Shown piece by piece: positions 3,565 through 44,158 of a DNA stretch of 64,000 bases. Source of the stretch: an uncultured Flavobacteriaceae bacterium (GTDB lineage Bacteria; Bacteroidota; Bacteroidia; Flavobacteriales; Flavobacteriaceae); the NCBI GenBank assembly GCA_913062575.1, contig CAJXVT010000006.1, positions 1-64,000 on the forward strand, in the 5' to 3' direction. The translations under genes were made by a program, and so were the position numbers. Every line of letters begins with the position of its first letter. The first letter of the stretch is position 1. Below the pieces are notes generated by a model. That model did no database searches and was not told where the DNA came from. It saw only the letters and a list, made by a program, of their open reading frames with translations.

Positions 3565-4246
3565 TGAGCTGCACCAATTAGCGAATGCAAAGAAAGTTGC
3601 ATTTAAAAAGCGAAAGTTTGGTGTTGTAGCAGATAACTCATTAGGTATTTATCAGAAGGATTTAAAAGAGCTCGCTAAGAAAATAGGAACCAATAGTAAA
3701 CTTGCAATCCAGTTATTTGATTCAGGGATCTACGAGGCTCGAATTTTATGCAGTAAAATTTTTGATCCTAAAGAATTAACCAATGACTTGTTAGAAAAAT
3801 GGGTAGTTACTTTTGAAAATTGGGAAATCTGTGATTCATTTTGTATGGGCTTATTTGCAAAAAGCTCATTTGCTATTCCTAAAATAATAGAATGGTCGCA
3901 AAGAGAAAAGGAATTTGAAAAACGAGCTGCATTTGCAATTTTGGCGGCCTATTGCATGGCAGATAAAAAAGCAGCAAATTCAGTTTTTGAAAACTTCTTT
4001 TCTATCATAAAAAGAGAATCAAATGATAATCGATTGTATGTGAGGAAAGCGGTGAACTGGTCATTGAGAAATATCGGGAAACGAAACATTGATCTAAACA
4101 AGAAAGTGTTGGGAATTGCAAGTGAGATTGTGAGAATGGATACTAAATGTTCTAATTGGATCGGTTCTGATGCCATCAAACAATTAACACGAGATAAAGT
4201 AAATATCTTAGATTATCCAAGAGCTATTTATAGAATAGAAAATTAG
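3542..4246 (+). CDS. DNA alkylation repair protein, AlkD-like HEAT-repeat glycosylase
   Basis: The 234-aa all-helical protein matches the AlkD family. W94 and D98 in ENWEICDSF correspond to the conserved Trp-x3-Asp of the AlkD active cleft, and W173 in RKAVNWSLRNIGKRN to the third conserved residue. AlkD enzymes excise bulky or cationic alkylated purines (3- or 7-alkylated) without base flipping. The start lies inside the preceding membrane-protein gene (23-nt overlap) and the TAG stop overlaps the GTG just before the AraC start, so translational coupling is likely. Function is inferred from family membership. Confidence 0.88.
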   Translation: MKYQEVINELHQLANAKKVAFKKRKFGVVADNSLGIYQKDLKELAKKIGTNSKLAIQLFDSGIYEARILCSKIFDPKELTNDLLEKWVVTFENWEICDSFCMGLFAKSSFAIPKIIEWSQREKEFEKRAAFAILAAYCMADKKAANSVFENFFSIIKRESNDNRLYVRKAVNWSLRNIGKRNIDLNKKVLGIASEIVRMDTKCSNWIGSDAIKQLTRDKVNILDYPRAIYRIEN

Positions 4247-32153: not shown

Positions 32154-33047
32154 TTATGGTTTTTGAATGCTATCTTCAAGCGCTTTGTCTAAAATCTTAT
32201 AAGAAAATGTAAAACCAGATTTTTCTGTTTTGTTAGATAATACTCTACTTCCTGTAGTTAAAAGGATAGCCATTTCTCCAAAAATAATTTTTAAGAAAAA
32301 AGTAGGAACTCCAATTGGAATGAATATTTTGTTTGTTTTTTTAGCAAGTATTTTTGCAAAACTAAAACTAGTTTTTGTTTCTGGAGCAACAGCATTGTAA
32401 ATACCCGTAAACGTGATATCTTCAATGGCTTTGAGATACATATTTGTCAAATCTTCAATATGAATCCAAGGAATATAATGTTTGCCAGTAGCAATTGGGG
32501 TAATCGCAATTGGCGTATTCATTTTTGACAATGCACCTCCATTTTTAGACAGTACAATTCCGACTCTGAGTATTGTGGTTGGTATATTTATGGTTTTAAA
32601 TTTTAAAGAAGAGTTTTCCCATTGTTGGCAGACACTTCCTAAGAAATCGCTAGCAGATTCGTCTGATTCTTTAAAAATACGTTCTGAAGTAATGGCTCCA
32701 TAATAGCCAACAGCAGAGGCTGCAATAAAGCCTTTAAGTGGTGTTTTTAATTTTTTGATAGTATTGAAAAGTAGCTCTGTAGTTTTTGTTCTGCTGTCAG
32801 TAATTTCTTGTTTTCGTTTTGTTGTCCAGCGTTTATCTGCAATTCCGGCACCAGCTAAATGAATGATATACTCAATATTTATAAATGCATTTTCGTCTAT
32901 TTCGTTGTTGGTGCTATTCCAGTAAAATTCATTTTTTCTTGTAGGGTTTCTAGTTAAAACTCGAACAATATAGTTTTTGTTGACTAATTTCTTTTGAAGA
33001 TATTGTCCAACCAAACCTGTTCCGCCTGTTATCAATATAGTTACCAA
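32154..33047 (-). CDS. TIGR01777-family epimerase (extended SDR)
   Basis: The 297-aa protein has the N-terminal NAD(P) motif ILITGGTGLVGQYL (GxxGxxG) and continues with the family segments EYIIHLAGAGIADKRWT, FIAASAVGYYG, QQWENSS and a C-terminal segment ending near residue 295. Members (YfcH-like) have unknown substrates. It overlaps the YdeI gene upstream by 7 nt. M28 peptidase, YdeI protein and epimerase all overlap end to end, indicating a single operon of three genes. Confidence 0.9.
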   Translation of the reverse strand: MVTILITGGTGLVGQYLQKKLVNKNYIVRVLTRNPTRKNEFYWNSTNNEIDENAFINIEYIIHLAGAGIADKRWTTKRKQEITDSRTKTTELLFNTIKKLKTPLKGFIAASAVGYYGAITSERIFKESDESASDFLGSVCQQWENSSLKFKTINIPTTILRVGIVLSKNGGALSKMNTPIAITPIATGKHYIPWIHIEDLTNMYLKAIEDITFTGIYNAVAPETKTSFSFAKILAKKTNKIFIPIGVPTFFLKIIFGEMAILLTTGSRVLSNKTEKSGFTFSYKILDKALEDSIQKP

Positions 33048-33616
33048 TCTCCTCTAGATTTTATGTTTTGCTCGCAAAGTTTCATGATTTCTAAAATACG
33101 CTTTTCTCGTGTGGCTTCTCTTTTGGCTTGGTTAACCCAATACAAATATCCTTTTTTATAAGATTTAGCAAAGCCTTGATAGTTTTTAAAAGCAATTTGA
33201 TTTTCATTAAATGCTTCTTGTAGTTCTTTAGGAATTACTAAGTTTTCTACATCATCTAAAGCAGTCCATGAACCATTTTTTTTACCAATGTTAATTTTGT
33301 CTATTCCAGATTGATGCATTAAATTATCGGTTACCAATTCTTTAATGTATCTTTTGTTTAGAGCACTCCACACACTTTTTTCTTTTCTTGGAGTGAAGGT
33401 TTGTTTTCTTTTTCCGTCACCTAAACTCTTTACGGTAGAGTCTATCCAACCAAAACACAAAGCAACTTTTACGGCTTCTTCCCAGCGCATACTTTCTTCT
33501 TTGTTTTCTACTTTATAGAACACTAAATACACACCTTTATGTTCTGAATGGTTTTCTTGAAGCCAAGTGCGCCACTCTGAATGTTTTTTAAAATATAATA
33601 AAGGTTTTTCTACCAT
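33041..33616 (-). CDS. YdeI/OmpD-associated family protein
   Basis: The 191-aa protein has the family features: FKKHSEWRTWLQENH, GVYLVFYK, MRWEEAVKVALCFGWIDS near residues 43-60, TPRKEKSVWSALNKRYI near 74-90, and a C-terminal helical YdeI segment (GYLYWVNQAKREATREKRI). Members are sometimes called bacteriocin-protection proteins but the biochemical role is unclear. It overlaps the M28 peptidase and the epimerase genes by 7 nt each. Confidence 0.87.
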   Translation of the reverse strand: MVEKPLLYFKKHSEWRTWLQENHSEHKGVYLVFYKVENKEESMRWEEAVKVALCFGWIDSTVKSLGDGKRKQTFTPRKEKSVWSALNKRYIKELVTDNLMHQSGIDKINIGKKNGSWTALDDVENLVIPKELQEAFNENQIAFKNYQGFAKSYKKGYLYWVNQAKREATREKRILEIMKLCEQNIKSRGDW

Positions 33617-34947
33617 TTTCTAACAATTTTAGAAGGGAACACCACTACACTTTCATGACCATCTTTTCCAACAGCGGCAACTCCGAAAAAGAAATTATCA
33701 ATCACAATTCCTTTTAATAAAAAACGTGAAACATCGCCAACATATCGACTGTTATCCCAAGTAGGAGAGGTTGTGTCTCTCCAATAAATTTTATAACCTA
33801 CAGCTCCATCAACTTTATCCCATTGCAATTTAGCGGATGCCTCTACGATTCCACCAATTCCAACATTTTTTGGTGATGGTGGAGCAGAAGCCAATCCAGC
33901 CATGGTAATTGCATTAACTGCAGTTAGTTTTTTAGCATATGCAAAGTTTACGTGCTCAAAAGTATCTCCATATTTAATACCGTTTTCTGTTCTAAGATCT
34001 TGATGTTGCTGTGTGTAGTTTTCATGAGCTTCCATAATTCTAATTCCAGCAAACCCTATATCATTAAAAGGTCTATGATGTCCACCACGACCAAAACGAT
34101 CTAATCGATAAATCATCATCGGATTCATTTCTGGCATATAGGTTTTTGTCATTTTATGTGTATAACGTGCTAATTGACGAGATATCCCATCTACTTCTCC
34201 ACCGTAAAAACGACGTGCTCTTCGCTGTCTTTCAGTTTCATTTGCAGGCACGGGTTCTGAGAAAATTCTAAATGCTCTATTATCAATAACACCATCAACA
34301 CCCGTAATATTTCCAATCATATCATTGTTTAAAACACCAATAATATCCCAATCATTGTCTTTTGCATATTTGGCCAATCCAGCTCCGCCAAAAAGACCTT
34401 GTTCTTCCCCAGACAATCCTACATAAATAATACTGTTTTCAAATTTGTATTTAGATAAGACTCTTGCTGCTTCAATGGTTCCTGCCATTCCAGAAGCATT
34501 GTCATTAGCCCCAGGAGCGTCAATTGTAAAATTCATTGTATTGCTTGAGCGAGAATCAATATCTCCACTCATAATAATATATCTATTTGGATATTTTGTT
34601 CCTTTCTGAATAGCAACTACATTTACAATCCAAGCATCGTGTGGTACACGTCGATTTCCTTTTTTAGTAACCAAGTCTTTTTGGTAAAAAGTAGTGATGC
34701 AGTTATTGCAATCTTTAGAGATATCATCAAATTCTGATTTTATCCAGCGGCGAGCTGCTCCAATTCCACGGGTAGTAGAAATGGTGTCACTAAAGGTATT
34801 TCTAGTTCCAAAATCGACTAATGTTTTAATGTTTTTTTTGATTCTATTTGCAGATACAGCATCAATAATATCATAGATTTTTTGATCTGTTTGAGAAAAG
34901 GAGAAAGTAATTACAAGAAGTAATGTAGCTGTTAGTAGTTTTTTCAT
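33610..34947 (-). CDS. Secreted M28-family metallopeptidase with fibronectin-like C-domain
   Basis: The 445-aa protein has a signal peptide (MKKLLTATLLLVITFSFSQ). The M28 metal site is recognisable: D149 in APGANDNASG, E181/E182 in GLSGEEQG, D209 in LNNDMIGN and H308 in IMEAHENY. The first motif, normally G-H-x-D, reads GDID at about 128-131, so the usual His ligand is Asp. A fibronectin type III-like domain follows from about residue 355. It probably acts as an aminopeptidase or carboxypeptidase in the periplasm. First gene of an overlapping three-gene unit. Confidence 0.87.
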   Translation of the reverse strand: MKKLLTATLLLVITFSFSQTDQKIYDIIDAVSANRIKKNIKTLVDFGTRNTFSDTISTTRGIGAARRWIKSEFDDISKDCNNCITTFYQKDLVTKKGNRRVPHDAWIVNVVAIQKGTKYPNRYIIMSGDIDSRSSNTMNFTIDAPGANDNASGMAGTIEAARVLSKYKFENSIIYVGLSGEEQGLFGGAGLAKYAKDNDWDIIGVLNNDMIGNITGVDGVIDNRAFRIFSEPVPANETERQRRARRFYGGEVDGISRQLARYTHKMTKTYMPEMNPMMIYRLDRFGRGGHHRPFNDIGFAGIRIMEAHENYTQQHQDLRTENGIKYGDTFEHVNFAYAKKLTAVNAITMAGLASAPPSPKNVGIGGIVEASAKLQWDKVDGAVGYKIYWRDTTSPTWDNSRYVGDVSRFLLKGIVIDNFFFGVAAVGKDGHESVVVFPSKIVRKW

Positions 34948-34979
34948 GGTGAAAATTTGAACCACTAAGGTATAAAAAT

Positions 34980-35014
34980 AAAAAAACCACTCCTGTTTAG
35001 AAGTGGTTTTTTTT
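34980..35014 (-). terminator. Intrinsic terminator of the DUF6249 gene
   Basis: The stem AAAAAACCACT / AGTGGTTTTTT has a 10-nt loop, and both sides carry A/T runs. It lies 20 nt past the stop of the 35035-35424 gene on the minus strand. Confidence 0.85.
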
Positions 35015-35034
35015 GAATTGAATTGAAAAAGAGT

Positions 35035-35424
35035 TTATGCTTCCTTGTCCATTTTTTTAGTTTGATTAAAGCCAATAAATAAAGCAGCTCCAGCAGATAA
35101 AAAGATTGATGCAGAATAGAAAACACCTTCGTCAATATAGTTGTCTGGACGATCTGCCCAAGCACCGCTATATCCAAAGTTATAACTTAAAAGTGTTCCT
35201 AATAAAATTCCAACTCCAACTCCCATTGCTAATAAAGCTACGTTTAATAAAAAAACTTGTGCAAAAGATGTCGATTTTTTTCTTCTTTCTCCTTGCATAA
35301 ATATTTTTGCGTCAACCCCTTTTTCAATTAATGCCAATCTTTCTTTGTTTCTTGTTGAAAAGAATAAATAAAAGATTCCGAAAATTGTTCCAAAGATGAC
35401 TGTTAATACTACTAATGCTTCCAT
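35035..35424 (-). CDS. DUF6249-type small membrane protein
   Basis: The 129-aa protein has three hydrophobic helices (residues 1-22, 55-82 and 100-118). Between the first two is a cytoplasmic segment FFSTRNKERLALIEKGVDAKIFM, typical of the DUF6249 family of Bacteroidota, which often sits beside ECF sigma factor genes. The function is unknown. Its promoter contains the same TGTAACC-N17-GTC element as the sigma gene, so it is likely a member of that sigma factor's regulon. Confidence 0.78.
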   Translation of the reverse strand: MEALVVLTVIFGTIFGIFYLFFSTRNKERLALIEKGVDAKIFMQGERRKKSTSFAQVFLLNVALLAMGVGVGILLGTLLSYNFGYSGAWADRPDNYIDEGVFYSASIFLSAGAALFIGFNQTKKMDKEA

Positions 35425-35474
35425 ATTGTTTATGTTTAAATTTAATGATTATTTTTAATGCGTTCATTCCATAT

Positions 35475-35501
35475 GACTGCTACTTTTAAATAAAGGTTAC
35501 A
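35475..35501 (-). promoter_or_regulatory. ECF sigma-type promoter of the DUF6249 gene
   Basis: On the minus strand TGTAACC (35495-35501) is followed by exactly 17 nt and GTC (35475-35477). The same element with the same spacing precedes the sigma gene and the S12 hydrolase at 37714. Confidence 0.75.
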
Positions 35502-35539
35502 AAAAAAGGAATTTTTTTTATTATACTTATTATAAGTGA

Positions 35540-35712
35540 AATAGCGTGATATTGAGAAACCTCTATTTTACTTACCTCTCCGCTACGGTCGAGATGATAG
35601 ATGCGGTTGAGACGACAAACCTTGTTCTTTAAAATGAAGTGTAGCGTAATTGAGAAACTTCTGCTTTACCTCTTTATATATAGATCTCTCAGCTAGAGTA
35701 GAGATGACAAAT
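35540..35712. repeat. Two tandem copies of a degenerate REP-like element
   Basis: Copy 1 (about 35540-35620) and copy 2 (about 35634-35712) both read roughly tgaa-n-tagcgt...attgagaaac-ttct-tttac-ctct followed by cta-g-t(a)gagatga and a gacaa end. This is the style of 'gagatctctcgac...gagatgaca' dispersed intergenic elements of Flavobacteriaceae. Both copies are decayed, and the role is unknown. Confidence 0.5.
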
Positions 35713-35751
35713 ATGCTCAAAAGGACAATTATTGCATTTAATGAAAAAAAC

Positions 35752-35778
35752 TGTAACCTTTTTTATATATTATAGGTC
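35752..35778 (+). promoter_or_regulatory. ECF sigma-type promoter of the sigma/anti-sigma operon
   Basis: TGTAACC (35752-35758), 17 nt, GTC (35776-35778). The ATG follows 10 nt later, implying an almost leaderless mRNA. It supports autoregulation. Confidence 0.75.
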
Positions 35779-35788
35779 AAAGATAATA

Positions 35789-36373
35789 ATGGCCAACAAA
35801 ACTGACGAAAACTATATTGAGTTAACCTTAAAAGGAGATCCTAATGCTTTTGCTTTTCTAGTAGAAAAGTATAAGGACATGGTATTTACGTTGGCCGTAA
35901 AAATGGTAAAGAGTAGAGAAGAAGCAGAAGAAGTCTCTCAAGATGCATTTATAAAAGCATATAAGTATTTACCTAAGTTTAAAGGGGATTCGAAATTTTC
36001 TACTTGGTTGTATAAAATTGCCTACAATACAAGTTTAGATGCCATTAAAAAGAAATCGAATTCTTATAATAATGTGGCTATTGATGAAATTACAATCAAC
36101 TATATTTCATCTGTAGAAACTATTTTAGATGGCATAGAAAGAGAAGAGCGCGCAGAAGTAATAAACGATTGTTTAGAACAGCTGCCAGAAGAAGAGAAAG
36201 CAATTTTATTGTTTTTCTATTTTAAAGAGTTAAGTTTGAAAGAAATTGTAGAAGTTACTTCTATGAGTGAAGCAAACGTAAAAGTAAAATTACACAGAGC
36301 TCGTAAGAAACTATTGAGCATTGTGAAAAATACAGTAGAACCAGAGTTAATTAGTCATTATGGGAGAAAATAA
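35789..36373 (+). CDS. ECF-type RNA polymerase sigma factor
   Basis: The 194-aa protein has sigma region 2 at residues 15-85 (FLVEKYKDMVFTLAVKMVKS...AEEVSQDAFIKAYKYLPKF, with the region 2.4 KFSTWLYKIAYN). It has sigma-70 region 4 at about 125-180 (LPEEEKAILLFFYFKELSLKEI; MSEANVKVKLHRARKKL). The start at ATG 35789 (MANKTDEN) avoids a leader that would overlap the promoter. A 14-nt overlap with an anti-sigma-like membrane gene follows. Its own upstream element is shared by two neighbours, so autoregulation and a small regulon are likely. Envelope stress is a plausible signal. Confidence 0.93.
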   Translation: MANKTDENYIELTLKGDPNAFAFLVEKYKDMVFTLAVKMVKSREEAEEVSQDAFIKAYKYLPKFKGDSKFSTWLYKIAYNTSLDAIKKKSNSYNNVAIDEITINYISSVETILDGIEREERAEVINDCLEQLPEEEKAILLFFYFKELSLKEIVEVTSMSEANVKVKLHRARKKLLSIVKNTVEPELISHYGRK

Positions 36374-36773
36374 ACATATTGAAGAAATTGATGCTTTTGC
36401 AAAAAAGTATATCAAAGAGATTCCAGTTGAATCTCCTTCAGTAAATTTTACGGCAAATTTAATGAATACAATTTCTCAGTTACAAACAGAGAAAACAATT
36501 GTATACAAACCATTAATTTCTAAAAAAGGATGGTTTGTTGTTGTTGCAGCAGTCATTGCTGTAGTTCTTATTTCTTTTAAATCTAGTAAAGAAAGTATTT
36601 TCACTATGCCAGAAATAAATCTATCATTTTTAGAGAAGTTTAGCTTTTCTGGAGTTTTTGAAAGTGTTAGTGTTTCTACATCAACATTATATTTAGCAAT
36701 TTTATTTTCTGTATTGATTTTTATTCAAATATTCTATTTAAAGGGGTATTTCGAAAAACAAATTAATAGTTAA
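36360..36773 (+). CDS. Anti-sigma-like membrane protein
   Basis: The 137-aa protein has a cytoplasmic N-terminal part (residues 1-56) that begins HIEEIDAFAKKYIKEIPVES, as in FecR/RseA-like partners of ECF factors, followed by TM1 (about 57-73) and TM2 (about 107-127). It overlaps the sigma gene by 14 nt, the standard sigma/anti-sigma arrangement, so it probably binds the sigma factor until an envelope signal releases it. It has no recognised anti-sigma domain that I can name. It is convergent with the propeller protein gene, 2 nt apart. Confidence 0.8.
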   Translation: MGENKHIEEIDAFAKKYIKEIPVESPSVNFTANLMNTISQLQTEKTIVYKPLISKKGWFVVVAAVIAVVLISFKSSKESIFTMPEINLSFLEKFSFSGVFESVSVSTSTLYLAILFSVLIFIQIFYLKGYFEKQINS

Positions 36774-36775
36774 TC

Positions 36776-37627
36776 TTATTCTGAAACCAACGCGAGTTTA
36801 GTTCCTTTTTCATTGACAATAATTCGAGAAATATTTTTGTGCTTTTTAGCTGAAAATGTATGAAAGACACTCCATGTTTTATCCGTTGCAGGATTAAATT
36901 TCATCAAGGTGTTATTTATTGCTAATAACAGTGTGCCATCTGGCAACCAGCAAACATCTTCTTTATTGCCAATAGAATTGATAATACTGCTTGTTTCTCC
37001 AGTTTTAGGATTTAGCATTCTAATCTCCCAATCTTCTTTTGCTTTACTAATATAGCTTACGAATCTTGTATTCGGAATTTTATGTACAGATCTACCTACT
37101 TTTTTCTGAATTGTTCTATTTCTTTTCGATTTTAGCTCGCTAAGAATTAAATCTAAATCTTTACCAACAATCACAACATTAATGGCAGTGTTCTTTTTAT
37201 ACCACATTGGATAGGCTACTTTTAAATCGGCAATCAATTCTGTGCTTTTTCCTGTTTTAGAATTATATTTATAAAAACGTTGTAAACCATCATTATCTAG
37301 TCTTACAGCAGAAATATCTTTAGAATTCGGAATACGTTGTGGAGAATATTCTCCACCATTTGGTGTATCATTTAAAAACTTTATTTCACCAGTATTCATA
37401 TTATATTTGGCAATATCGGTTAGCTTATCTCTGGTTGATGAAAAAACAATTGATTTACTAGAGTAAAAATGAGGCTGGCTGTCATAGCCAGGATTGTTGG
37501 ATATGTTTATACCACTCGTAATTGCATAATTTCCATTGTCATTAGACAGGTTATAGAGATATACTTCTGTGTTTGATTGTGAAAATGCAATAGTTGTTGT
37601 AAGTAGTAAGAAAACTAGTTTTTTCAT
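36776..37627 (-). CDS. Secreted TolB-like beta-propeller protein
   Basis: The 283-aa protein has a signal peptide ending at AFSQ (about 17). WD40/PD40-type repeats follow: HFYSSKSIVFSSTRD near residue 50, YSPQRIPNSKDISAVRLD near 95, RFVSYISKAKEDWEIRMLN near 190 and EDVCWLPDGTLLLAINNT near 225. Such six-bladed propellers in Bacteroidota are periplasmic, often of unknown ligand. Not co-directional with the sigma operon, and I see no ECF element before it. The short gap to the S12 gene suggests independent regulation. Confidence 0.8.
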   Translation of the reverse strand: MKKLVFLLLTTTIAFSQSNTEVYLYNLSNDNGNYAITSGINISNNPGYDSQPHFYSSKSIVFSSTRDKLTDIAKYNMNTGEIKFLNDTPNGGEYSPQRIPNSKDISAVRLDNDGLQRFYKYNSKTGKSTELIADLKVAYPMWYKKNTAINVVIVGKDLDLILSELKSKRNRTIQKKVGRSVHKIPNTRFVSYISKAKEDWEIRMLNPKTGETSSIINSIGNKEDVCWLPDGTLLLAINNTLMKFNPATDKTWSVFHTFSAKKHKNISRIIVNEKGTKLALVSE

Positions 37628-37659
37628 TGAGAATAGATTTCTTCAAATATAGTAAAAAG

Positions 37660-37692
37660 AAAAACCTCTTAGTTCTACTAAGAGGTTTTTTA
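37660..37692 (-). terminator. Intrinsic terminator of the S12 hydrolase gene
   Basis: The perfect stem AAAAACCTCTTAG / CTAAGAGGTTTTT around a 5-nt loop is flanked by A and T runs. It lies 22 nt past the stop of the hydrolase at 37714-38778. Confidence 0.9.
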
Positions 37693-37713
37693 GATTGAAT
37701 AGTATTTCTAGAA

Positions 37714-38778
37714 TTATTCTATAACTATTTTAGTAATATCTCTTGTTAATTGAGTTGGAGAAATACAATCGCAATTAGTTAAGATTACTACATAAGTCCC
37801 TTTGCTTGGTATGTACACTCCCATAGATTTGTATCCGAAAATACTACCTCCATGTTCATAAGAAACCTCATTGTTTATGGTTTTAATATTCCAACCATAG
37901 CCATAATTTATTTTCTCTCCGTTGTTTAACGTATAATTAGTATAGGCTTTTTGAAGTATTTCTTTTCTCAATAGTTTGTTTGTTATTAATGCTTGTTGCC
38001 AAAGATTTAAATCATCAACAGTAGATGTTAATGAACCGGCAGCATAAGGTAATGTATAGCTGATAAACATTGCGTTTTGGTATCCGTTTCTGTTATGATA
38101 ACCAGAAGCTCTATTTTTTATTAGTTTAGACTGGCTATTATAGGTAGAATTCTTCATGCTCAATTTGTCAAAAATATGTTGTTGAATAAATTCAGCATAA
38201 GAAAGACCAGAAATTTTTTCGATGATGTAGCCTAAAATAATATATCCCGAATTGTTGTATTTGTATTTTTCTCCTGGATTAAAATCAACAGGCTCATTTT
38301 TAAAGAAATTGATCAATTCTAAAGGAGTCATATCATTTCTTGCTACAGCAAATAATTTTTTTATTCGTGTGTAACTTTTAATTCCAGAAGTATGGTTTAA
38401 TAAATGATGTACGGTTATTTTTTGTCCATGAGTTGGGTAATCTGGAATGAATTTTGTGATTTCATCTTCCAGACTAATTTTACCTTGCTCTACTAACATC
38501 AATATAGAAACTGCTGTAAATTGTTTGGTCATGGAGCCAATTTCAATTCGGTTTTCTGGTGTCATCTTTACATTTAACTCAAGATTTGCTAATCCAAAAG
38601 CTTTGCGATACGTTGGTTTTCCTTTTTCTGATATAAGTACTACTGCACCTGTAGTATTTGCTTTGAGCTTTTCGTTTAAGAGTTTGTCTATTTTTGCTTC
38701 TTTAGTTTGAGAATATCCTATAGAGATAAAAGCTAATGTAATTATGAACACTATGCTTTTTGTTATTTTTTGTTTCAT
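37714..38778 (-). CDS. Secreted S12-family serine hydrolase, minimal form
   Basis: The 354-aa protein has a signal peptide ending at GYSQ (residue 24). It has S82-x-x-K85 (IGSMTK), the Tyr motif YNN (YKYNNSGYIILGY) and the third motif HGG (SYEHGGSIFG). Near the end is a conserved TNCDC pair of cysteines. It is closely similar to the hydrolase at 42803-44158 (shared KQFTAVSILML, LLNHTSGIK, TSTVDDL, TNC-C) but lacks that enzyme's C-terminal domain. An ECF-type promoter (38808-38834) precedes it, tying it to the neighbouring sigma factor. Confidence 0.88.
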   Translation of the reverse strand: MKQKITKSIVFIITLAFISIGYSQTKEAKIDKLLNEKLKANTTGAVVLISEKGKPTYRKAFGLANLELNVKMTPENRIEIGSMTKQFTAVSILMLVEQGKISLEDEITKFIPDYPTHGQKITVHHLLNHTSGIKSYTRIKKLFAVARNDMTPLELINFFKNEPVDFNPGEKYKYNNSGYIILGYIIEKISGLSYAEFIQQHIFDKLSMKNSTYNSQSKLIKNRASGYHNRNGYQNAMFISYTLPYAAGSLTSTVDDLNLWQQALITNKLLRKEILQKAYTNYTLNNGEKINYGYGWNIKTINNEVSYEHGGSIFGYKSMGVYIPSKGTYVVILTNCDCISPTQLTRDITKIVIE

Positions 38779-38807
38779 CTTGGTTTTTACTGTTTGTTTT
38801 CAGGTAA

Positions 38808-38834
38808 GACCTAGGCTGTATTGGTTAGGTTACA
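38808..38834 (-). promoter_or_regulatory. ECF sigma-type promoter of the S12 hydrolase gene
   Basis: On the minus strand TGTAACC (38828-38834), 17 nt, GTC (38808-38810), 29 nt before the ATG. Spacing is identical to the two elements flanking the sigma gene. Confidence 0.72.
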
Positions 38835-38904
38835 GAATACAGGGTGTAGTTTAAATGCAGGCTGATTTTTGTGTTCAAATAATTTTATTTGGTAAACTCA
38901 AAAA

Positions 38905-38964
38905 TGTAAAGTATATTTGTCATAACGAAAAGTAAATTTTACATAATATAAAATATATTTGTCA
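38905..38964 (+). promoter_or_regulatory. Repeated operator and promoter boxes of the membrane protein/XRE pair
   Basis: Two 18-bp direct repeats, TGTAAAGTATATTTGTCA (38905) and TATAAAATATATTTGTCA (38947), differ at 2 positions and start 42 bp apart (four helical turns). Between them is an 11-nt palindrome GTAAATTTTAC (38932-38942). Each repeat contains a perfect TATATTTG box. It is a likely autoregulatory operator. Confidence 0.55.
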
Positions 38965-38967
38965 ATT

Positions 38968-39417
38968 ATGAACACGAGAAAAATAATAGAGTGCGAACAA
39001 AGACGTTTTGGGAAAATTATAAATTTTAGATTGTCATCTAAATTTATGAAAGTTGGAATTACACTAGGAGCATTGTCTATTGTGATGATGCTTGTTAGAA
39101 AATTTGCTCTCGAAGGAGATACCGATTGGTTAAAGTTGTTATTGCAAAAGACATTGTTAGTCGGGTTGCTAATTATGTCTATATCAAAAGATAAAGAAGA
39201 AGATGAAATGGTTATTACATTAAGATCACAATCTTATGCTATTGCATTTGTTATTGGTGTTGTATATGCATTGGTAATGCCGTATGTTGAGTTTGGTGTA
39301 GATAGCGTTATAGGATCAAATGTTTCTGAATTTAAAAATTTAGGTGATTTTCAAGTACTATTATTTATGTTGATGATTCAACTGATGTTTTTTCATAGTT
39401 TAAAACGTTTTAGATAA
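38968..39417 (+). CDS. Membrane protein paired with XRE regulator
   Basis: The 149-aa protein has a short basic cytoplasmic N-terminus and about four hydrophobic segments (residues 28-43, 55-72, 88-105 and 128-142). The loop KDKEEDEMVITLRSQSYA lies between helices two and three. The stop overlaps the ATG of a small HTH gene (1 nt, TAATG). This two-gene arrangement resembles membrane-protein/XRE modules that control envelope responses. ATG 38968 is preferred to an upstream TTG. It is divergent from the S12 hydrolase. Confidence 0.72.
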   Translation: MNTRKIIECEQRRFGKIINFRLSSKFMKVGITLGALSIVMMLVRKFALEGDTDWLKLLLQKTLLVGLLIMSISKDKEEDEMVITLRSQSYAIAFVIGVVYALVMPYVEFGVDSVIGSNVSEFKNLGDFQVLLFMLMIQLMFFHSLKRFR

Positions 39418-39617
39418 TGGTAAATACAATTAAAGTAGAACGCGCTATATTAAATCTAACACAAGACGATTTAGCTAAGAAAATAGGAGTTTCTAGGCAG
39501 ACTATCAACTCAATTGAAGCCAATAGATATGTGCCTTCTACAGTCTTAGCATTAAAACTATCTGACGTTTTTGGAAAACCTGTAAATGAGTTTTTTAAAC
39601 TTTCTAATGAAGATTAA
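39417..39617 (+). CDS. Small XRE-family regulator
   Basis: The 66-aa protein is a single HTH_3/YozG-like domain (MVNTIKVERAILNLTQDDLAKK; GVSRQTINSIEANRYVPSTVLALKLSDVFGKPVNEFF region). Being only a DNA-binding unit, it probably acts as a dimer and is coupled to the preceding membrane protein by an overlapping start. It is the likely binder of the repeats at 38905-38964. Confidence 0.88.
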   Translation: MVNTIKVERAILNLTQDDLAKKIGVSRQTINSIEANRYVPSTVLALKLSDVFGKPVNEFFKLSNED

Positions 39618-39618
39618 T

Positions 39619-40470
39619 TTATAGTTTTTCTTGTAGAGCTTTTCTCCAATAATAGATTCCAAACACAAAAGTAACAATAGCAAACATAACTCCGTATTCG
39701 CCAAGCCAATGTTCAGAACCTTCAACATTTGTTGTTAGTTTTGGAAAGATTTTCTGAATATAGACATTGCTAGCTGCGTGAAATAGTACTGCTGGCCATA
39801 CACTTTTAGATTTAAAAGTATAGTAGGTCATTATAAATGACATAGAGACAATAACTACATAAAAAGTAGTCATTTCAAGAGCAATGTTACCGCCATAATA
39901 TACAATTAATGGCCAATGCCACGTTGCCCAAACAATTCCGCTAAATATAGAAACCCAAGTAAAAGAAAGTACTTTTCGTAATTCGAAAATAAAGAAACCG
40001 CGCCAACCAATTTCTTCTCCTAACGTAGTTGCCATTGCTCTAACAACACTAACGGTTCCTACTAGAACAATCGCAATAATTAATGCGATAGTTGTGTTTA
40101 AAGTACCAATACCCATTAGCCCAATTTCTGTAGCCCAAGTAACAATTGTTTCTTTAGTTGCAATGTTGCCATATCCTAATAACCAAATTGCTGCATAAGT
40201 AATAGTTGCATAAAGTGCAGGGATAAAATATGACATACGAATGTGTTTCCAGTCTCCCCAATTCCAATGTAGAGAAGAGATTTTTCTCCCTTTTATTTTT
40301 AAAGTCAGAAATGCAGCCAAAGCTGGACACCACATTAAAGCGCCAATGTAAATCCTTGATGGATATAAATTGACAATTGCATAATGAAACACTGCACTAA
40401 AAAGCGTTACAATAACTAGAAAAATTGAGATTGTACTTAAAGCTTCTTTACGTTCTAATTTACTTTGCAT
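39619..40470 (-). CDS. CPBP-family intramembrane metalloprotease
   Basis: The 283-aa protein has about eight hydrophobic helices. The ABI/CPBP active-site motifs are present: EEIGWRGFFIFEL (EExxxR) near residue 152, ATWHWPLIVY (the H motif) near 180, and LFHAASNV near 232. Members cleave or process peptides in the membrane (CAAX-prenyl or bacteriocin-like). The stop is 1 nt from the XRE stop on the other strand. The EthD gene lies 50 nt upstream on the same strand. Confidence 0.88.
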   Translation of the reverse strand: MQSKLERKEALSTISIFLVIVTLFSAVFHYAIVNLYPSRIYIGALMWCPALAAFLTLKIKGRKISSLHWNWGDWKHIRMSYFIPALYATITYAAIWLLGYGNIATKETIVTWATEIGLMGIGTLNTTIALIIAIVLVGTVSVVRAMATTLGEEIGWRGFFIFELRKVLSFTWVSIFSGIVWATWHWPLIVYYGGNIALEMTTFYVVIVSMSFIMTYYTFKSKSVWPAVLFHAASNVYIQKIFPKLTTNVEGSEHWLGEYGVMFAIVTFVFGIYYWRKALQEKL

Positions 40471-42802: not shown

Positions 42803-44158
42803 TTAGATTTTAGTTGCTAAAATTTTTCTTCCAGATTGATTCAATATTAAACCGGTTACTGCTCCTTTTTTATTGGTTTTAAACATGATTTTTGCAGGAA
42901 CTACTTTCATGAAAAATTGAAATTCGTTTTTAGGAAAAAGCGCAATAGATTTTGTTTGTCTTGGAGCTGTTAAAAATAATGAGTTGTTCTTATAGCTAAT
43001 GGTGATGTTTACAGTTGGTTTTACTTCGTATGTACCAATGTACTTTTGCAATATCTCTGAAGCTATTTTTACTGTTTTTATTTGTGGAGAAACAATCGAT
43101 TTCTTTAAAATTAGATTAGCAATGGATTTATTTACATCGAGAATGTTTTTACAATTACAATTTGTTAATATTACCATATAGATGTTTTCTTTTGGGAAAA
43201 ACATAGCTGTAGAGGTAAATCCTTTGGTGCTTCCTGTGTGAGCAATTACGCTAGAACCTTTTAGGTTTGCAAATCTCCAACCATATCCATACGGAATCTT
43301 TTTTCCATTATTTAATATGCTTGGACTCATTGCTTTTTGTAAACTCTCCTTTTTTATCAGTGTGAAGTTTTGTAACGCATTATGCCATGCTAATAAGTCA
43401 TCTACTGTAGTCATAATAGCTCCTGCAGAAAAGGGTAAGGTTAAACTCATATAGTCTGCATTTACAAACTTGTTCTGTTTAAATTGATATCCATTAGCTC
43501 TTTTTTTTATGATCGTTTTCATGCTTCCATAAGAAGATGAACTCATGTTCAATTTTTTGAAAATGTTATTTTCAATAAACTCTTTATAGGAAACTCCAGA
43601 AATGATTTCTACTATTCTACCTAATAAAATGTAGCCAGCATTGCTATATTTAAACTTGCTACCAGGTTCAAAATCTAAAGGATTATTTTTAATGTAATTC
43701 GTCAACTCAATAGAGCTCATATCTTTTCTAGATAGATACCCTTTATCTCCAATTGGAGTATTATTTTTAATTCCAGAGGTGTGATTTAGTAATTGATGAA
43801 TGGTGATTTTTTTTCCTCTTATTGGGAAATCTGTAATATAGGTTTCAATGCGATCATCTAAGTTTAATTTCCCTTGTTCTAGTAACATTAAAATAGAAAC
43901 AGCCGTAAATTGTTTTGTTAGAGAGCCAATCTGAAAGACGTTTTCAGAACTCATTGTAGTGTTTAATTCTAAATTAGATTTCCCAAATGCTTTTCTGTAT
44001 ATCGCTTTTCCATTTTCCGCAATTAAGACAGAAACTCCAGGATTAGTTTTTGTATAATTAGAAGAAATAAGAGCATCTATTTTAGAAGAAATATCATCTT
44101 GAGCAAAGATGATCTGTATACTTAAAAGAAGAATTAAAGTAGTAGTGAATTTTTTCAT
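42803..44158 (-). CDS. Secreted S12-family serine hydrolase with C-terminal domain
   Basis: The 451-aa protein has a signal peptide ending at IFAQ (residue 20). It has S79-x-x-K82 (IGSLTK), the second motif YSN (FKYSNAGYILLG) and the third motif HTG (IAHTGSTKGF). It shares the TNCNC cysteine pair with the paralogue at 37714. A beta-rich C-terminal domain of about 95 residues follows (YIGTYEVKPTVNITISY; SLFLTAPRQTKSIALFP). First gene of the operon with membrane proteins and an XRE regulator. Presumed peptide or ester hydrolase of the periplasm; substrate unknown. Confidence 0.87.
   Translation of the reverse strand: MKKFTTTLILLLSIQIIFAQDDISSKIDALISSNYTKTNPGVSVLIAENGKAIYRKAFGKSNLELNTTMSSENVFQIGSLTKQFTAVSILMLLEQGKLNLDDRIETYITDFPIRGKKITIHQLLNHTSGIKNNTPIGDKGYLSRKDMSSIELTNYIKNNPLDFEPGSKFKYSNAGYILLGRIVEIISGVSYKEFIENNIFKKLNMSSSSYGSMKTIIKKRANGYQFKQNKFVNADYMSLTLPFSAGAIMTTVDDLLAWHNALQNFTLIKKESLQKAMSPSILNNGKKIPYGYGWRFANLKGSSVIAHTGSTKGFTSTAMFFPKENIYMVILTNCNCKNILDVNKSIANLILKKSIVSPQIKTVKIASEILQKYIGTYEVKPTVNITISYKNNSLFLTAPRQTKSIALFPKNEFQFFMKVVPAKIMFKTNKKGAVTGLILNQSGRKILATKI

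Follow-up and report, generated by a model that had tools for sequence, protein, structure and literature searches.

What controls the extracytoplasmic function (ECF) sigma factor gene at position 35789 of a contig from an uncultured Flavobacteriaceae bacterium, and which other genes share that control? The window, by which we mean the whole 64,000-nucleotide stretch analysed (GCA_913062575.1, contig CAJXVT010000006.1, positions 1 to 64,000), carries the element TGTAACC-N17-GTC before three genes, and a preliminary description had proposed that the sigma factor controls itself, a small membrane protein and a periplasmic hydrolase as a local regulon. Comparison with related loci supported this proposal at every step accessible from sequence, and we infer from it that the sigma factor encoded at 35789 recognizes the element. 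The locus very probably encodes a small autoregulated ECF sigma/anti-sigma switch that has a DUF6249 protein as its constant partner and, in this lineage, an S12-type hydrolase as a further target. The features concerned are as follows.

35035..35424, minus strand: gene for a DUF6249 membrane protein, 129 aa (PF19762)
35475..35501, minus strand: predicted ECF promoter of the DUF6249 gene (-35 TGTAACC at 35495-35501, -10 GTC at 35475-35477)
35502..35751, no strand: 250-nt spacer between both divergent -35 elements (geometry of genus loci)
35752..35778, plus strand: predicted ECF promoter of the sigma operon (-35 TGTAACC at 35752-35758, -10 GTC at 35776-35778)
35789..36373, plus strand: ECF sigma factor gene, 194 aa, regions 2 and 4 (Pfam, TIGR02937)
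36360..36773, plus strand: probable anti-sigma gene, 137 aa, two hydrophobic helices (position, conservation)
37714..38778, minus strand: S12-type serine hydrolase gene, 354 aa, signal-peptide-like start (PF00144)
38808..38834, minus strand: predicted ECF promoter of the S12 gene (-35 TGTAACC at 38828-38834, -10 GTC at 38808-38810)

An ECF sigma gene with an exact upstream element

All three sites lie where the preliminary description had placed them and each faces a start codon, the distance from the end of GTC to the ATG being 10 nt (sigma), 50 nt (DUF6249) and 29 nt (S12). Its remark that no further copy had been noticed holds for the entire window: the same three are the sole matches to TGTAACC-N16..18-GTC and to the looser TGTAAC-N16..18-GTC. 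Against these 3 matches, 100 dinucleotide shuffles of the window gave a mean of 0.11 and a largest count of 1. An Rfam search across 33000-40000, the spacer at 35502..35751 included, returned no family above threshold.

The 194-residue protein has the architecture that defines ECF sigma factors, regions 2 and 4 with no other sigma-70 domains: Sigma70_r2 (PF04542, 1.9e-17), Sigma70_r4_2 (PF08281, 3.3e-16) and TIGR02937 were all matched above cut-off. The closest solved structure is SigW (E 2.8e-27); the SigW equivalog models were not reached (129.2 bits versus 209 for NF007223, 120.4 versus 243.1 for TIGR02948). The closest named relatives come from Polaribacter and other Flavobacteriaceae records, which suggests Polaribacter or a neighbouring group as the origin of the window.

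Self-control of the sigma gene is supported by its upstream sequence in relatives. We read 43 loci and set aside two partial copies (L021, L114); the remaining 41, among which L010/L091 and L011/L092 each seem to represent a single contig, encode proteins 42 to 100% identical to the window's sigma factor. An exact TGTAACC-N17-GTC begins 34-38 nt before the aligned sigma start in 37 of these 41 orthologous loci; the exceptions are L023 and L024 (TGTAACG-N17-GTC at -40), L026 (N16) and L112, whose only site is a TGTAACT at -83. ECF transcription starts lie a few nucleotides past the -10 element, and GTC stands close to the ATG; the sigma mRNA would therefore be expected to have almost no leader. 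According to the available portions of two reports, leaderless mRNAs make up 5.5% in Flavobacterium psychrophilum (PMC9723704), and about 3.7% of 5′ untranslated regions are shorter than 10 nt in Bacteroides thetaiotaomicron (PMC7366714).

At the sigma start of L094 (G027), L096 (G022) and L097 (G002), ACG or ACA replaces the ATG of the relatives and no ATG, GTG or TTG is found at the expected position; these genes may use a non-standard start codon or begin further downstream. In G031 a second, incomplete sigma match covers the last 100 residues at 91% and sits at the end of a contig (G031:C346:8300-8599); it may be an assembly or strain variant.

The DUF6249 gene and the divergent promoter pair

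The small membrane protein encoded back to back with the sigma factor matches PF19762 at 1.6e-12 (47.7 bits, gathering cut-off 33). Its predicted structure is helical (helices 2-34, 54-83 and 99-128), and a fold search of the PDB with this model gave nothing at E <0.001, the best hit being 0.54. Control of this gene by the same sigma factor, as had been proposed, is supported by the paired promoters, which are conserved and change together.

Among 58 genomes of the genus, the sigma factor is present in 31 (E 1e-40), and the same 31 carry DUF6249; a 39-residue DUF6249 match was found in one more, G073. The pattern TGTAACCT-N16-GTC, which amounts to the N17 site with a spacer beginning in T, has at least two matches in every one of the 31 sigma-bearing genomes, the divergent pair included, and two matches in none of the 27 sigma-less genomes, four of which have one. 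Reversed-control matches numbered 46 in the sigma-bearing and 25 in the sigma-less genomes. We then read 30 genus loci, of which L189 has no sigma gene within its flank. Both sites are present in all 29 loci with both genes in reach; because the exact pattern served to pick the sites, they are bound to be invariant, and the telling fact is that no two-gene locus is without them. GTC ends 9-11 nt before an in-frame sigma ATG in 26 of the 29 (no ATG stands there in the other 3), and the distance between the -35 elements is 26-36 nt in 19 of them, versus 250 nt in the window.

In G073 (L283, G073:C1:975000-985000, 4092-4205) the last 38 residues of DUF6249 remain, the sigma and anti-sigma genes are gone, and the remnant is flanked on both sides by relatives of the genes that flank other loci, so that the locus looks like a natural deletion of the module. 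G004 has the whole module twice, at G004:C13:25121-26229 and G004:C68:11621-12798.

Concerted change of both promoters across the phylum

Beyond the genus, DUF6249 was recognized divergent from the sigma gene in 23 of 25 named loci (L010-L020 and L022-L035; not in L018 and L025), which span records of Flavobacteriaceae, Prolixibacteraceae, Bacteroidales and Chryseolinea and a metagenome-assembled genome labelled Chlorobiota. A blind search with the divergent-pair pattern matched 37 of 392 phylum genomes, in 25 of 178 genera, and the reversed control matched 10 genomes. When coordinates were compared by eye, a DUF6249 gene adjoined the pair in 34 of the 37 (not in G413, G359 and G185), and the models recognized both sigma and DUF6249 in 27 of the 30 blind-pair loci that were read, the exceptions being L254 (no sigma), L271 (no DUF6249) and L279 (neither). 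DUF6249 itself occurs in 134 of the 392 genomes. A further 94 neighbourhoods with DUF6249 above cut-off were fetched (about 3.6 kb each), and 90 of them hold an ECF sigma match above 60 bits; a strict TGTAAC site precedes both genes in 33, DUF6249 alone in 10 and sigma alone in 3, and neither gene has one in 48.

Taken over the 124 loci of both phylum searches, 94 are divergent, with TGNAAC...GTC on both sides in 65, on the sigma side only in 10, on the DUF6249 side only in 8 and on neither in 11, and the variable -35 base agrees in 63 of the 65 two-sided loci. L253-L282 had been chosen by TGTAACC and agree by construction, so that the fair test is confined to L344-L437, picked by DUF6249 alone. 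There, 67 loci are divergent and 43 have both sites; the base agrees in 41 of 43, versus a shuffled mean of 29.7, and 0 of 10000 shuffles reached that number, a result that is not a strict probability because the loci are related. The agreeing loci are 35 T/T and 6 A/A, the latter with TGAAAC on both sides and stemming from three families (f34, f45, f53); the other two are A/C mixtures, and no T/A combination occurs. The reversed motif gave zero sites on either side in the fair-test loci. One shared reader for both divergent promoters would be the simplest cause of this concerted change. In a tree of 66 sigma factors, 39 of 40 module-linked proteins fall into one group (96/90), which also contains one long-branch paralogue (L161); L271 is outside it.

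In L042 and L044 (Ignavibacteriota) the two genes are not back to back: DUF6249 and sigma genes run in the same direction behind a single TGTAACC-N16-GTC.

A serine hydrolase as a probable lineage-specific target

The proposed periplasmic hydrolase matches PF00144 at 3e-66 (224.3 bits, gathering cut-off 27), with alkaline D-peptidase 4y7p as the closest solved structure (E 4e-45); it lies far below the named class C beta-lactamase cut-offs and is therefore not called a beta-lactamase. Its place in the regulon stood for the lineage and not as a general rule. S12 orthologues in five further genomes keep the N17 site (L015 being the sixth case), 22-33 nt before the S12 start in all six, and in G003, G069 and G067 the gene with its N17 site is far from the sigma gene or on another contig. 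All five N17-S12 genomes that were tested for the sigma factor have it.

Beyond the divergent pairs, the sigma-bearing genus genomes hold 18 matches, seven of which stand 18-33 nt before a hydrolase gene (five S12, one esterase, one alpha/beta hydrolase) and 11 inside open frames; all 4 matches in sigma-less genus genomes likewise lie inside open frames. The alpha/beta hydrolase of G012 (L211) resembles a protein of G388 (L327), and the site stands at the same 18 nt in both. The G388 hydrolase is also the one remaining case among 27 strict CGTC matches in 14 genomes, 11 of them from other genera, where 21 belong to the pair and 5 lie inside open reading frames (ORFs). Across 18 S12 loci that were read, 5 have the N17 site, 7 (proteins of 457-550 aa; L222-L224, L226-L229) have TGTAAC[CT]-N16-CGTC and 6 have no site. 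The N16 form also precedes a lipoprotein-like gene of 226-228 aa in G022, G027, G077 and G003 (loci L288, L298, L308 and L309), which suggests a second ECF class, no sigma factor for which was found.

A second S12 gene in the window (43106-44152, minus strand), 48% identical to the first, has no TGTAAC site upstream.

A probable anti-sigma gene

The gene that overlaps the 3′ end of the sigma gene by 14 nt encodes 137 residues. The protein matches no anti-sigma family at E values up to 0.1, and none appears among the 16 families listed for 20 relatives; positional equivalents in 4 of 7 other module loci gave RseA_N matches that stay below cut-off, the best at E 9.8e-5. In a model of low confidence (pTM 0.26), helices at 5-19 and 30-43 are followed by hydrophobic ones at 55-74 and 107-136. 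With no family match of its own, the anti-sigma label is an assignment by position, and the product is a probable membrane anti-sigma factor.

Specificity and rival explanations

The idea that the motif defines a regulon needed narrowing: N17 spacing and position carry the evidence, and TGTAACC is not exclusive to this sigma factor. A second ECF sigma gene of the same genome, C24 (G000:C24:9168-9698), also has the heptamer, as TGTAACC-N16-GTC, and by eye 14 of its 15 relatives have TGTAACC-N16-GTT, L252 having neither (C24 and relatives, L237-L252). It therefore takes more than the -35 heptamer to define the regulon. In its own genome the C24 gene is followed by a gene whose product has a CxxC-type zinc-finger-like N-terminus. 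The C24 sigma factor was considered as reader of the N16 S12 promoters and rejected, because none of the seven genomes with these promoters has a match to it at E 1e-40; decay to N16 after loss of the window's sigma factor was rejected as a general cause, the sigma factor being present in 6 of the 7.

These observations could also be read as a generic ECF promoter, with several ECF sigma factors reading TGTAACC/GTC and the three genes forming a cross-regulated set. Besides C24, the 19 genes of the own genome above the region-4 cut-off and the N16 sites at S12 relatives in 7 genomes, including one that lacks the sigma factor, are in keeping with such a set. However, the C24-type sigma factor occurs in only 16 of 58 genus genomes whereas the N17 pair tracks the window's sigma factor in 31 of 31, the divergent promoters change together, and only one other ECF gene of the own genome showed exact TGTAACC and GTC (in a scan with rough start choices); we consider a generic promoter very unlikely. 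Alternatively, GGTTACA...TGTAACC might be an inverted repeat bound by a dimeric transcription factor, with no promoter pair at all. The divergent sites do form 28-nt arms that are 71% complementary, but the distance between the arms varies from 29 to 413 nt across the 29 genus loci, single sites stand upstream of S12 genes, and GTC at a fixed N16/N17, followed by a start codon after 9-11 nt in 26 of 29, is consistent with a promoter. An operator is barely credible and was rejected. That the pair is real and the S12 site a chance neighbour, with S12 outside the regulon, strikes us as rather unlikely: most strict CGTC matches outside the genus belong to the pair, with 5 of the other 6 inside ORFs, and genus S12 loci often have the N16 form (7 of 18) or no site (6 of 18), but the N17 site recurs at a narrow distance before S12 genes in six genomes, three with the gene far from the sigma gene, and the sigma factor accompanies it wherever tested.

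Several observations weigh against the autoregulated switch proposed here. The genome-wide scan that had been suggested for the motif revealed no enrichment: in the own assembly (2.36 Mb, 68% complete), bare TGTAACC-N16..18-GTC gave 9 matches versus 20 for the reversed control. Six of the 9 lie beyond the window: one N17 site upstream of an esterase gene, the N16 site of C24, two N16 sites 8 and 16 nt upstream of other ORFs, L001 in no ORF of at least 50 aa, and L009 inside an ORF. Counts within one genome prove nothing, and the evidence therefore rests on position, spacing and conservation. Extra matches in the sigma-bearing genus genomes (18 in 111.6 Mb) are likewise fewer than those of the reversed control. 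Sigma gene, DUF6249 gene and pair are physically linked, so that their co-occurrence is not independent evidence of recognition and the genus pattern attests joint inheritance as one unit, not recognition. G073 is without the sigma factor yet keeps an N16 site upstream of an S12 gene, C24 shares the heptamer, and the anti-sigma factor was assigned by position. Finally, 48 of the 94 further DUF6249 loci have no strict TGTAAC site on either side; 46 of these still have the sigma gene, and on both sides, many of the 25 inspected by eye carry TGAAAC or TGCAAC, or differ in the -10 element or the spacing.

Proposed mechanism

We suggest that the 137-residue product of the overlapping gene probably keeps the sigma factor at the inner membrane. 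Once a signal released this brake, the sigma factor would direct RNA polymerase to TGTAACC-N17-GTC promoters. By firing its own promoter it would set up positive feedback; by firing the divergent one it would supply DUF6249, probably a third component that tunes the anti-sigma factor or repairs what the anti-sigma factor senses; and in this lineage it would also fire the S12 promoter, yielding a secreted serine hydrolase. It is conceivable, although on balance doubtful, that the module is an ancient switch of Bacteroidota and their near relatives in which DUF6249 is the dedicated third component beside the sigma factor and a two-helix anti-sigma factor. The core regulon would then consist solely of its own two back-to-back promoters, sensing would be intramembrane, the sigma mRNA would be leaderless, and S12 and alpha/beta hydrolases would be lineage add-ons that pass from one ECF regulon to another when the promoter spacing changes by one base.

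DUF6249, a family without a function, is thereby tied to one regulatory module across the phylum with an exact promoter rule. The rule and the constant partner make the role of DUF6249 and the regulon testable by simple deletions, and lineages with TGAAAC instead of TGTAAC at both promoters offer natural variants for -35 specificity.

Comparison with known systems

A literature search found nothing joining TGTAAC with an ECF sigma factor in Bacteroidetes, the titles that combine the two concerning other phyla; for DUF6249 the sole paper in which the word occurs bears a title on a plant gene family, with most subscription papers outside the search. The ECF group classification did not surface, and the sigma group of the module may already be numbered or described elsewhere.

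In the SigW-RsiW and RpoE-RseA switches the sigma factor acts on its own promoter, which contains AAC in the -35 element and GT in the -10 element. The module resembles them in these features of its predicted promoter, in a sigma factor nearest SigW in sequence and in its pairing with a small membrane protein gene; it differs in an anti-sigma factor without a family match of its own, in the constant DUF6249 partner and in a two-promoter core instead of a large regulon.

In Bacteroides, the accessible parts of the reports on the ECF21 systems Das/Dma and EcfO/Reo describe an anti-sigma gene that adjoins the sigma gene, upregulation of the own operon on anti-sigma removal (das2), anti-sigma factors whose long tether and C-terminal beta-barrel extend to the outer membrane, and NigD and polysaccharide utilization loci as targets (PMC13088901, PMC13114119). 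As far as those parts go, the module is alike in being a Bacteroidota ECF sigma factor with an adjacent, here putative, anti-sigma factor, and unlike in its 137-residue protein with two hydrophobic helices and in its targets; tether and barrel are absent from this protein, which shows helices only in its low-confidence model. Nearer in lineage are the SM6 promoters of F. psychrophilum, which the portion of the source available to us presents as ECF-type, with a CGT -10 box and including a sigma/anti-sigma operon (PMC9723704). The predicted promoters of the module share these traits, whereas SM6 covers type IX secretion system and other genes, in a comparison confined to the -10 box and the genes controlled. 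As a self-regulated ECF unit the module is well supported and ordinary in kind; what is unusual is that it is so small, two-sided and widely kept, with a constant partner of no assigned function.

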